Shown here: positions 19,126 through 21,912 of the stretch, one piece after another
How the letters are laid out: every line of letters starts with the position of its first letter
Position numbering within the stretch: the first letter of the stretch is position 1
Source: a virus
Length of the DNA: 22,173 bases
Strand: one strand, 5' to 3'
IMG/VR virus record: IMGVR_UViG_3300037635_003007
Coordinates: 1 to 22,173 of that record
The notes under the pieces: model-generated
Told to the model about the DNA's origin: nothing
Databases searched by the model: none
The model's input: only the letters and a program-made list of their open reading frames with translations
Position numbers and translations under genes: made by a program

Positions 19126-19236
19126 ATGCCAAATCTTGAGAATACATACCGAGATTTTTTTTCAAATCTTGAGAATACATACCGAGATTTTTTTGTAAAC
19201 TTTGAAAACAAATACCGAGATTTTTATGAAAACTAA
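19126..19236 (+). CDS. 36-residue ORF made of three 11-residue repeats
   Basis: The ATG follows GGGGAG by 4 bases. The product consists of three tandem copies of N-[LF]-E-N-[TK]-Y-R-D-F-[FY] separated by S, V or E, coded by the three 33-bp repeats at 19131-19229. It ends 11 bases into the next gene. The nucleotide core also occurs in another frame and period at 21742-21912, so the DNA repeat rather than the peptide may be what matters. Treat as a tentative gene. Confidence 0.4.
   Translation: MPNLENTYRDFFSNLENTYRDFFVNFENKYRDFYEN
19131..19229 (+). repeat. Three tandem 33-bp repeats (AAATCTTGAGA...ACCGAGATTTTT)
   Basis: Units at 19131-19163, 19164-19196 and 19197-19229. The first two are nearly identical; the third has diverged at its 5' half. 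Each contains AAATCT and AGATTT as inverted arms around a 15-base centre, followed by a T-run. The same core appears at 21742-21912 with 57-bp spacing. Confidence 0.9.
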
Positions 19237-19537
19237 AAAACGAAATAATAAAAAAATTACAATGCCAAAAAAAGTTAATAGTGAAATAGAAAAATATCCT
19301 ATGGTTTCGGTTGAGTGGTTTGATATAGTTAGCGATAGCTCATGGACTAGTTTTGAAAATTTAAAAAATAGTGAGCTTGCAACCTGTATTACAAAAGGCC
19401 ATTTATTCTCTCAATCTAAAGGTGTCACTAGATTATTTGGAGATTATTCTTTTAGCGAAGATAAAAAGAGAATTGAGAATATAGGTAATACAACCATAAT
19501 TCCTAATTCTGTAATAAAAGAAATTAAAAAAATTTAG
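19226..19537 (+). CDS. Conserved small phage hypothetical protein
   Basis: The ATG at 19226 is chosen over the upstream TTG at 19202, which lies in the repeats. The 103-residue product has a very basic start (KTKKRNNKKITMPKKV), then VEWFDIVSDSSWTSFE, LATCITKGHLF, LFGDYSF and IPNSVIKEIKKI at the end. The W-x-D...W...C-x-T-x-G...IP...I..I pattern matches a small-protein family frequent in phages. Function unknown. The 11-base overlap with the preceding repeat ORF is consistent with coupling. Confidence 0.65.
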   Translation: MKTKKRNNKKITMPKKVNSEIEKYPMVSVEWFDIVSDSSWTSFENLKNSELATCITKGHLFSQSKGVTRLFGDYSFSEDKKRIENIGNTTIIPNSVIKEIKKI

Positions 19538-19577
19538 TATCTTGTAATATTTTTTTCTGGGTTTATTTTAACAATCC

Positions 19578-19670
19578 ATGAATGAATTTATTGCATTTAT
19601 TTTAAGATTTATAATACTTTTTCCTGCACTATTTATAATAATATTGATTTTACTAGGTTATTTTTCATAA
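19578..19670 (+). CDS. 30-residue hydrophobic membrane peptide
   Basis: MNEFIAFILRFIILFPALFI continues with IILILLGYFS: almost wholly hydrophobic, one membrane span. The ribosome site is weak (GGGTT region). It stands alone 40 bases after the previous gene and just before a strong promoter. Small hydrophobic peptides of this kind are easily missed; whether it is expressed is uncertain. Confidence 0.4.
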   Translation: MNEFIAFILRFIILFPALFIIILILLGYFS

Positions 19671-19679
19671 AAATAAAAT

Positions 19680-19708
19680 TTGACAAATTTAATTTTATAT
19701 TTTATTAT
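19680..19708 (+). promoter_or_regulatory. Strong sigma70-type promoter
   Basis: TTGACA (19680-19685), 17-base spacer, TATTAT (19703-19708), the best consensus match in the window. A roughly 30-base leader runs to GAGG and the ATG at 19746, with the related leader text TTTAACAAAAAGAGG. Confidence 0.75.
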
Positions 19709-19745
19709 CATGGGATAATAACAATTTAACAAAAAGAGGTATAAA

Positions 19746-20345
19746 ATGGGTTTTGACTTATATGGATTAAATCCACAAACAACGATTAAAAGACCAGAAA
19801 GACCAGATAATTTACATGATGAGAATTTTTCTCAAGAAAAGCGAGAAAAATATTTTAATGAAATGGATAAGTATGAAAGTCAAAGTGGTACTTACTTTAG
19901 AAACAATGTTTGGTGGTGGCGACCACTTGCAGATTATGTAATTAGATTTACAAAAGTCGTAAGTGATAAAGACGCTGAGCGTTGGCACTTCAACGAAAAT
20001 CATGAAGTTAGTGATAAAGACGCTAAAATGATTGCGCAACAATTAGAGCATTTAATTAGCACTGGCCATACTAAAAAATATGCTAAAGGGTTTGAGCTTT
20101 TAAGAAAAAAAGAAGAAAAGAAAAATGAAATAGTTGAGAAAGAGCTACAAGCCTTTAGTGAAAGTGTTAAGAAAAAATACAATCAATCTCGTTGGGCGCC
20201 AATAGATTTTCCGAAAAAAGAAAAGCAACAATGGGATAGAATACTACAAAAAAGAAATAGTGTTGCTAGTTATCCTTTTAATTTAGAAAATGTAAAAGAG
20301 TTTGCAAATTTTTGTAAATTTTCTGGTGGCTTTACTATTGGATAA
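19746..20345 (+). CDS. Conserved phage/bacterial hypothetical protein (MGFDLYG type)
   Basis: A 199-residue protein. It has the recognisable N-terminal run MGFDLYGLNPQ and, near residue 50, GTYFRNNVWWWRPLADYV, a highly conserved signature in a large family of phage and bacterial proteins of unknown function. After it come two similar acidic stretches (VSDKDAERWHFNENHE and VSDKDAKMIAQQLEH), then a basic coiled-coil-like region (LLRKKEEKKNEIVEK) and a C-terminal EFANFCKFSGGFTIG. It is preceded by the strongest promoter seen here, so it is probably well expressed as an early or host-takeover-type gene; that is inference. Confidence 0.75.
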   Translation: MGFDLYGLNPQTTIKRPERPDNLHDENFSQEKREKYFNEMDKYESQSGTYFRNNVWWWRPLADYVIRFTKVVSDKDAERWHFNENHEVSDKDAKMIAQQLEHLISTGHTKKYAKGFELLRKKEEKKNEIVEKELQAFSESVKKKYNQSRWAPIDFPKKEKQQWDRILQKRNSVASYPFNLENVKEFANFCKFSGGFTIG

Positions 20346-20359
20346 AAAGAATTTTTTGG

Positions 20360-20385
20360 TTATTTTTAACAACTGTTAAAAAATA
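20360..20385. other. AT-rich hairpin after 19746 gene
   Basis: TTTTTAAC (20363-20370), loop AACT, GTTAAAAA (20375-20382), extended by TTA/TAA with a bulged A; an alternative stem pairs GTTATTTTTA with TAAAAATAAC. There is no T-run on the plus strand, so at best it is a weak or minus-strand terminator. Confidence 0.35.
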
Positions 20386-21170: not shown

Positions 21171-21255
21171 AATTGGTACTAGGCCAATAGGTAAGCTAGC
21201 AACCTGTATTGAGATAAATACTAGTTATTAATTTGATCTCAAGCTAAAGTCCTGC
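21171..21255 (+). other. Inverted repeats between 20589 gene and terminator
   Basis: ATTGG (21173-21177) and CCAAT (21184-21188) can pair, and TTGAGAT (about 21209-21215) with ATCTCAA (about 21235-21241). TTGAGAT also recalls the core of the tandem repeats at 19131 and 21742. No coding potential. Confidence 0.4.
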
Positions 21256-21298
21256 AAAAGCCCTTAACAATGCGCGAGAGTGCGGTTGAGGGCTTTTT
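21256..21298 (+). terminator. Strong rho-independent terminator with GAGA tetraloop
   Basis: GCCCTTAAC (21260-21268) pairs with GTTGAGGGC (from 21285 to 21293, one G-U), with an internal loop, then GCGC-GAGA-GTGC (21272-21283) with a GNRA-type loop. It is framed by AAAA before and TTTTT (21294-21298) after. It ends transcription of the 20589 gene. Confidence 0.9.
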
Positions 21299-21306
21299 AT
21301 TTATAT

Positions 21307-21323
21307 GTTATTGACCTAATAAC
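21307..21323 (+). promoter_or_regulatory. Palindrome directly before the nuclease start
   Basis: GTTATT (21307-21312), 5 bases (GACCT), AATAAC (21318-21323). It lies 3 bases before the ATG of the 21327 gene, which has no Shine-Dalgarno sequence. Possible operator or start-blocking hairpin. The TTGACC inside could be read as a -35, but that would place transcription inside the gene. Confidence 0.4.
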
Positions 21324-21326
21324 ATT

Positions 21327-21689
21327 ATGAAAAAATCAGAAAGTTTATTGTGGCAACGCATAAAAAATTTAAAGTTAAAAGGTCAAATTTTTCGTATAGA
21401 AAGCCCAACAATTAATGGAATACCAGATGTTTATTGGTTGATAAACAACAAAAGTATTTGGATTGAGTTAAAGTCCAATAACGTCAAGAATTTAGGTTTA
21501 TCCAAGTACCAAATCAACTGGCATTTGACACATTTTAAAAATGGTGGTGTGTCTTTTATCTTGCGAGAGGCACTCTCGTTCTCACACTCTTCAGAATATC
21601 AAATTTTCGTGATCCGTGAACCGAGAACCGTGATCGAATTAGCAAAATTCAAAAATTTAGAAGACGCAATCAAAAAAATTCAAGCGTAA
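21327..21689 (+). CDS. VRR-NUC / PD-(D/E)XK-type nuclease
   Basis: A 120-residue protein. The catalytic core is seen as E25 (IESPTINGIPDVY, with G31, D34) followed by WIELKSN with E47 and K49, the E..PD..ExK order of small VRR-NUC and Holliday-junction-resolvase-type nucleases. Later parts (KYQINWHLTHFKNGG) match the helix that carries a conserved Q in this fold. Such genes near the terminase may cleave branched DNA before packaging. A dispersed CACGG-type element (21611-21635, opposite orientation) encodes VIREPRTVI. No ribosome site; the palindrome at 21307 is immediately before the ATG. Confidence 0.8.
   Translation: MKKSESLLWQRIKNLKLKGQIFRIESPTINGIPDVYWLINNKSIWIELKSNNVKNLGLSKYQINWHLTHFKNGGVSFILREALSFSHSSEYQIFVIREPRTVIELAKFKNLEDAIKKIQA
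21611..21635 (-). repeat. Dispersed CACGG element, copy 7 (inverted)
   Basis: GATCCGTGAACCGAGAACCG and TGATC read on the minus strand as CACGG-TT-CTCGG-TT-CACGG-ATC. Inside the VRR-NUC gene. Confidence 0.6.
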
Positions 21690-21741
21690 ATAACCAAGTC
21701 CCACGCCTCACGAGACTTTGACACGCGCCAAGCATAGCTTG
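21690..21741. other. Short noncoding stretch with degenerate CACGG-type motif
   Basis: Between the nuclease stop and the tandem array. It carries CCCACGCCTCACGAGAC (about 21701-21717), a weak match to the dispersed element, and GCGTAAATAACCAAGT (21684-21699), a partial copy of the 57-bp unit. No clear gene. Confidence 0.35.
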
Positions 21742-21747
21742 GCGCGT
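21723..21747. other. Perfect 11-bp GC-rich palindrome
   Basis: ACGCGCCAAGC (21723-21733), loop ATA, GCTTGGCGCGT (21737-21747). It is the most GC-rich structure in the neighbourhood, lies at the left edge of the 57-bp array, and has no T-run on either strand, so it is not a typical terminator. Its right arm provides the GCGCGTAA that begins the first repeat unit. Confidence 0.7.
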
Positions 21748-21912
21748 AATTCTTGAGATTGATACCAGAATAATTTTTCTTTTTATTAGTATTAGTATGC
21801 GCGTAAATCTTGCGATCAATAACCAAAGTTTTTTCATATACGTTAGTATTAGTACGCAGGTAAATCTTGAGATTAATACCGAGATTTTTTCTAATACTGT
21901 TAGTATTAGAAT
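21742..21912. repeat. Three tandem 57-bp repeats
   Basis: Units 21742-21798, 21799-21855 and 21856-21912, each GC[GA][CG]GTAAxTCTTG[AC]GAT...ACC... TTTTT... TTAGTATTAG. Exact 57-base period, 19 codons long. They are imperfect copies and share the AAATCTTGAGATTAATACCG...TTTTTT core with the 33-bp array at 19131. A 101-codon frame exists on the minus strand (21680-21985) and a long open frame without a plausible start on the plus strand (21722-21939), so coding status is unclear. Confidence 0.85.

Follow-up and report, generated by a model that had tools for sequence, protein, structure and literature searches.

Why should a phage genome carry one short core in two separate tandem arrays, and what might recognise it there? 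The question is raised by a 22,173-nucleotide stretch of viral DNA (IMG/VR record IMGVR_UViG_3300037635_003007, positions 1 to 22,173; hereafter the window), in which array 1 occupies positions 19130-19228 and array 2 positions 21742-21912 (all features given here lie on the + strand). An earlier note on this DNA had proposed that the two arrays share a core and function at the level of DNA or RNA. We found that related phages keep both arrays, that the class of the core varies between them, and that this class co-varies with two genes about 16 kb from array 1, the homologues of gp82 and gp83. This co-variation suggests that these probably injected proteins recognise addresses on the phage's own genome. 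Judged by sequence similarity, the window is a contig of a Pelagibacter phage related to HTVC023P, its best relative in the phage collection (80.9% identity across 39% of the window), and the gp numbers used below (gp22, gp25, gp26 and gp81-gp85) are the names of the HTVC023P homologues. Phages of the Pelagibacter group infect SAR11 and are very abundant in the ocean.

One core in two arrays of different period

The arrays were called in the window using a repeat search and Tandem Repeats Finder. Array 1 has a 33-bp period and consists of three copies with 100, 97 and 76% identity to the first, namely 19130-19162, which carries the class I core CAAATCTTGAGAATACATACCGAGATTTTTTTT, 19163-19195, detected by both repeat and core searches, and 19196-19228, the 76% copy, which runs into the gp22 start codon at 19226. 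Array 2 has a 57-bp period and three copies of 100, 70 and 72% identity to the first; the units at 21742-21798 and 21799-21855 are degenerate and emerged from the repeat search, and the unit at 21856-21912 has an exact core and was also recovered by the core search. The full core, CTTGAGA-N(3-6)-ATACCGAGATTT, matched exactly three times in the window, twice in array 1 and once in array 2, and not at all in 100 dinucleotide shuffles, so that just three of the six array copies are exact. The earlier note was therefore right that one core underlies both arrays, in three repeats each and in different reading frames, and its count of three cores per array stands for the copies as such but not for exact ones. 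The 1-base indel that it had described between the cores of the two arrays is real (AGAATACATACC versus AGATTAATACC).

Relatives were gathered from IMG/VR using the nuclease and gp22 proteins as queries. They carry arrays at the same two places as the window, with cores that are specific to a lineage, and neither of the outcomes that the earlier note had held against its own view, absence from all relatives or purely protein-level conservation of one array, was observed. At least nine array classes could be distinguished, seven in a first set (I, CTTGAGATTGCATAACGG; II, CTTTGAAGACATATGTGG; III, CGAAGATACATATGGG; IV, GAAACTTTACTATGTAA; V, CCTAAACTTTACTAATGTG; VI, GACTATCTATATGGG; VII, GCTATCAGCTTATATGA), to which class VIII and then a diverged IV-like class (IX) were added later; since classes were defined by eye and the class patterns tuned by hand after the data had been viewed, class counts are descriptive. 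The spacing in relatives is mostly 30-34 nt in array 1 and mostly 56-60 nt in array 2, and array 1 ends at or near the gp22 start codon in most phages. A distant lineage of the terminase small subunit (TerS), comprising L093 and others, has gp22 without array 1. We also observed repeated CTCGTTCTCGTTT words 3' of the nuclease gene in L093, L101, L127, L148 and others of this distant lineage, where there are no arrays. Similarly, HTVC027P has GCTTGAAGCTTG words 3' of its nuclease gene, and no comparable array was seen around its TerS and nuclease genes.

Both arrays were present at 42 distinct loci, and at 40 of these they belonged to one class, compared with a maximum of 18 in 20,000 permutations. 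Within a class, the two arrays differ in a regular manner, as in class IV, where array 1 has ACTTTACTATGTAA and array 2 has ACTTTGCTATGCAA, and array 2 is therefore not simply a fresh copy of array 1. When contigs were scanned whole, cores were confined to the two arrays, to the coding strand and to phages of their own class, the exceptions being mixed cases.

gp82 and gp83 follow the array class

To relate array class to gene content, we clustered the genes of 29 contigs and compared, for the 82 families with at least seven members, the identity between phages of the same class with that between phages of other classes. The largest differences, far above the rest of the families, were those of gp83 (+38.6 points) and gp82 (+27.2 points), neither of which was reached in 2000 permutations (0/2000 each). 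About ten further families passed the nominal 5% level with smaller effects, as some are expected to do by chance among 82, and the next in rank was a 50-residue open reading frame (ORF; +11.1 points, p = 0.0005). In the same comparison, gp81 and gp84, which flank gp82 and gp83, did not follow array class, DNA polymerase, helicase and primase did not track it either, and gp22 tracked it weakly (+5.2 points). The boundary is well illustrated by G003 (class IV) and G008 (class II), which share 88% identity in gp81 and 96% in gp84, but only 31% in gp82, and for whose gp83 proteins no hit was obtained. In the window, the gp81 homologue is cut by the window start (1-522) and is followed by the homologues of gp82 (525-1385, 286 amino acids) and gp83 (1394-3940, 848 amino acids); roughly the first 80 residues of gp82 are conserved and the remainder follows array class. 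This match between arrays and the gp82-gp83 module had not been foreseen in the earlier note.

A gp82 profile search added further contigs, six of which had array 1 and both proteins, and for these, gp83 identities were calculated only after the arrays had been classed by eye. Across the 18 contigs used to compare identity within and between classes, phages of the same class shared 73.5% identity in gp83 and 84.1% in gp82, and phages of different classes 39.1 and 56.1%, respectively (0/5000 permutations for both), while the control genes gave within- and between-class values of 90.9 and 86.8% (TerS), 77.3 and 74.4% (gp81) and 84.5 and 82.4% (gp85), a weak nominal association seen in 1-6% of permutations and expected from shared ancestry. 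Distance between array 1 sequences, with units picked using the class patterns, correlated with protein distance in Mantel tests for gp83 (r = 0.64) and gp82 (r = 0.62; both 0/2000), and the values for other genes were 0.16 (gp84), 0.04 (TerS), -0.02 (gp81) and -0.06 (gp85); between classes, array distance and gp83 distance were weakly related (r 0.37). Mapped on a tree of control genes, array class changed 9 times, much as shuffled labels did (mean 9.9), whereas the gp83 tree needed 4 changes, the minimum; for these counts class III was merged with class II, which was decided after gp83 identities had been seen. Pairs of sister phages, G004/G039 and G003/G008 among them, show little difference in backbone yet belong to different classes and carry different gp83 proteins. 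A phage with class III/V arrays carries a class II-like gp83, and thus classes II and III may be interchangeable.

Two later contigs with TerS, G076 and G077, have a gp82 that is just 34-36% identical to that of the window, as is class IV gp82, and were therefore expected to carry IV-like or new arrays. The gp83 of G076 is 45% identical to class IV, the other listed classes giving about 24% at most, and the arrays of this contig are of class IV; G077 has a gp83 with 39% identity to class IV, the next value being about 27% over the full length, and its arrays look like diverged class IV. This test was not fully blind because the class comparison and the arrays emerged from one script. In total, twenty contigs had an array together with both proteins, and seven contigs with class IV gp83 and no TerS were left untyped.

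gp81-gp82-gp83 as a putative ejection module

What kind of protein follows the arrays? HTVC023P gp81 matches phrog_4287, a DNA ejection protein family (E = 2.3e-10), and both T7 and P22 have ejection modules of three genes (PMC8954989, PMC10883804). The order gp81-gp82-gp83 resembles these modules, T7 gp14-gp15-gp16 and P22 gp7-gp20-gp16, and in P22-like phages the gp7 homologues are the most conserved and the ejection proteins vary in a mosaic manner (PMC10883804), which resembles the pattern here, with a conserved first protein followed by variable ones. gp82 and gp83 are thus probably the second and the third, largest, ejection proteins. The gp83 model matches proteins of uncultured phages with low template modelling scores (TM-scores), some of these proteins being annotated as LT_GEWL or M15 peptidase. 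Alignment of gp83 with T7 gp16 or HTVC027P gp85, and of gp82 with HTVC027P gp84, gave no match in hhalign, and no RNA polymerase domain was matched by gp83 in Pfam, PHROGs or PDB sequences, with low confidence of the model.

The simplest account of the co-variation is that some protein of the gp82-gp83 module recognises the arrays. The specific reading that we favour, and to which we assign a chance slightly short of even, is that both arrays are putative cognate recognition sites for the phage's own ejected gp82 and/or gp83 and are used at genome entry or just after it. gp82 and gp83 would enter the host together with the DNA and would bind directly to the repeated sites on the incoming genome, as DNA and not as RNA; the bound proteins could then act as a sequence-specific clamp or anchor, or form a loop between the two arrays. 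If the gp82-gp83 module were swapped for another type, both arrays would have to change too, so that array 1, array 2 and the module would stay in one class. Among the possible steps we prefer genome entry, since proteins that are ejected reach the cell along with the DNA and since, in T7, DNA is bound in the cytoplasm by the C-terminal region of gp16, which has been proposed to act as a clamp on the incoming genome at about 850 bp (PMC8954989). As a broader and more tentative proposal, which we think somewhat doubtful, the arrays and the module may constitute a self-address system: virion proteins, once ejected, would recognise the arrays of their class on the accompanying genome, and matched sets would diversify and switch jointly by recombination across about 16 kb. 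In that case, genome entry or first expression would be specific to a phage's own type, which might bar mixed or rival genomes.

Several observations weigh against recognition by the ejected proteins. Neither gp82 nor gp83 has a Pfam or PHROG match and their structural models are weak, with predicted local distance difference test (pLDDT) scores of 61 and 56, and their role in ejection is for this reason read from genomic context; fold searches of these weak models in PDB and BFVD gave no recognisable DNA-binding fold. The placement of array 1 over the gp22 start, and of array 2 ahead of an operon, suits gene regulation as well. The P22 genome can work with foreign ejection proteins (PMC10883804), and cognate sites are therefore no general need. 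Moreover, the arrays are mismatched in three phages, L024 (II/I) and L048 (III/V), which are the two exceptions among the 42 loci, and L023 (III/II), which lay outside that set, and the gp83 sample covers no class V, VII or III/III phages.

Other explanations for the arrays

Co-variation with the module could also arise if the arrays were regulatory operators, bound by gp82 or gp83 as RNA or DNA, and served not genome entry but the control of gp22 and of the operon downstream of array 2, at the level of translation or transcription. We consider this unlikely and nevertheless a serious rival, because array 1 touches the gp22 start codon. Its end at or near this codon in most phages, the location of array 2 between the nuclease gene and a leader bearing TTGACA, and the presence of every unit of a contig on the coding strand would all fit such operators, but relatives without array 1 still have gp22, class I lacks a conserved RNA hairpin and array 2 adjoins no start codon. 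The coupling might instead be indirect and run through the host, with the arrays adapting to a DNA- or RNA-binding protein and gp82 and gp83 to the envelope of a given SAR11 lineage, without contact between the two. This strikes us as less probable again: although ejection proteins are targeted by exclusion proteins such as P22 SieA (PMC10883804), no family besides gp82 and gp83 tracks class so well, and array distance scales with gp83 distance, weakly even between classes. It appears improbable that the arrays are recognised by an unsampled third factor that is linked in turn to the type of gp82/gp83; many contigs are incomplete and some genes were hence seen in few phages, but the comparison covered 82 families, no class-specific gene set stood out, and no convincing class-specific extra gene was found when one was sought.

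Readings in which the arrays act through their own product fare worse. That array 1 is a small coding gene for 11-residue repeats (MPNLENTYRDFF...) is hardly credible. It draws on an open frame of 36 codons, which the earlier note had left unmentioned, running from the ATG at 19127 (19127-19236) with a Shine-Dalgarno-like MPNLENTYRDFFSNLENTYRDFFVNFENKYRDFYEN and confined to the window and its close relatives, but in 30 of 42 phages a stop codon within the array ends the frame that begins at the first ATG, so that conservation is not at the protein level; in addition, spacings of 31, 32 and 34 nt, which are not multiples of three, are common, and the core is repeated in array 2 without a gene. 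Retention of both arrays at both places and the interrupted frames support the DNA- or RNA-level function proposed in the earlier note. A peptide of 36 residues, if made from a window-type array 1, would consist of three 11-residue repeats. A role of the units as RNA hairpins or as weak intrinsic terminators is very improbable. An 8-bp stem (AAATCTTG/CGAGATTT) is followed by a T-run in the window, and a perfect hairpin precedes array 2 in many phages, but the central C-G pair is broken in 22 of the 27 distinct class I units, in which covariation does not clearly exceed control levels, and the spacers of several classes, including those of several class VI array 1 units, are A-rich and not T-rich. 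The inverted arms (AAATCT/AGATTT) and T-run stressed in the earlier note are accordingly present in the best copies, but the weight placed on them is unsupported across relatives; taken as a whole, its interpretation is partly supported.

Some known kinds of element were tried and rejected. The arrays lie beside the TerS gene as cos or pac sites might, but sites bound by TerS are not indicated, because array class does not co-vary with TerS in the Mantel and identity comparisons given above. For stoperators or operators of an immunity repressor, sites occur in the two arrays only and no repressor-like family tracks class; for a type III toxin-antitoxin system with ToxI repeats, the coupling to gp22 is weak and gp22 occurs without an array. 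A conserved G+C-rich stem with a T-run in each unit, typical of intrinsic terminators, was not found, nor was an N4-type stem-loop at each site, which was formally tested in class I only. Replication-origin iterons, repeats to which an initiator binds beside an origin, were also considered; here the relevant observation is that DNA polymerase, helicase and primase do not track array class.

Comparison with known systems

Recognition of the arrays by ejected gp82 or gp83 would resemble the N4 virion RNA polymerase, in that an ejected virion protein recognises specific sequences on its own genome, but N4 uses hairpin promoters, whereas gp83 has no RNA polymerase family match and the arrays have no consistent hairpin. 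Phage T5 has an injection stop signal, a non-coding stretch with repeats at which DNA entry is believed to stop at a defined point. The likeness lies in the repeat-bearing non-coding region, and no T5 counterpart of class switching with ejection proteins is known to us. Similarly, 80alpha gp44 is an ejection protein that binds phage DNA, as proposed for gp82 and gp83, and it binds DNA ends without sequence preference (PMC7290940). T7 gp16 binding, too, has been described as sequence-independent, whereas the proposed recognition of the arrays is class-specific; the described DNA-binding ejection proteins, T7 gp16 and 80alpha gp44, thus show no sequence preference (PMC8954989, PMC7290940). Our literature search turned up no account of these arrays, or of any cognate repeat arrays whose sequence changes along with that of ejection proteins. 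We cannot name a kind of system into which an ejection module matched with genomic arrays would fit. Ejection proteins are a poorly understood class, and if gp82 or gp83 does bind the arrays selectively, entry of the genome or what follows it would obey a code in the sequence; the existence of matched sets would further account for how ejection modules can be exchanged between phages. Phages of different class with near-identical backbones offer natural test pairs.

Other features of the locus

The genes around the arrays follow the order TerS - sORF - array 1 - gp22 - gp23 - variable genes - VRR-NUC-like gene - array 2 - gp26 - ... - TerL. In the window, TerS (18521-19030), one of the controls that do not follow array class, is 80-87% identical to that of main-class relatives, and a conserved small ORF (sORF, 19038-19124) separates it from array 1. 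The gp22 homologue (19226-19537, 103 amino acids), whose start codon adjoins array 1, belongs to phrog_25889, a family of unknown function. Upstream of array 2 lies the nuclease gene (21327-21689, gp25 in HTVC023P), which was named VRR-NUC-like from sequence motifs read by eye and has library matches to phrog_2165 and phrog_93. Between this gene and array 2 there is an 11-bp hairpin with an ATA loop (21723-21747). Upstream of the gp26 homologue, a TTGACA at 21969-21974, which resembles a -35 hexamer and is conserved in relatives, may be a promoter element as read by eye; a consensus scan did not list it. The leader 5' of the gp26 homologue (21985-22115) is strongly conserved in relatives and folds better than shuffled sequences (z = -2.9), making it a possible structured RNA, and an Rfam search of the window, including this leader, gave zero matches.

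In many IMG/VR contigs of the nuclease set the sequence breaks off about 500-520 nt inside TerL; assembly within a conserved stretch is the probable cause, and assembly may also account for the 141-base overlap between the ends of one long contig. A block of about 100 bases with GCCCCAGGG-type stems, at about 20470-20570 of the window, shows modest folding (z = -2.0) and is missing from L003, which has other sequence nearby. Finally, a strong terminator-like hairpin (AAAGCCCTTAAC...GTTGAGGGCTTTTT) lies at 21256-21300, 3' of the gp24 homologue.

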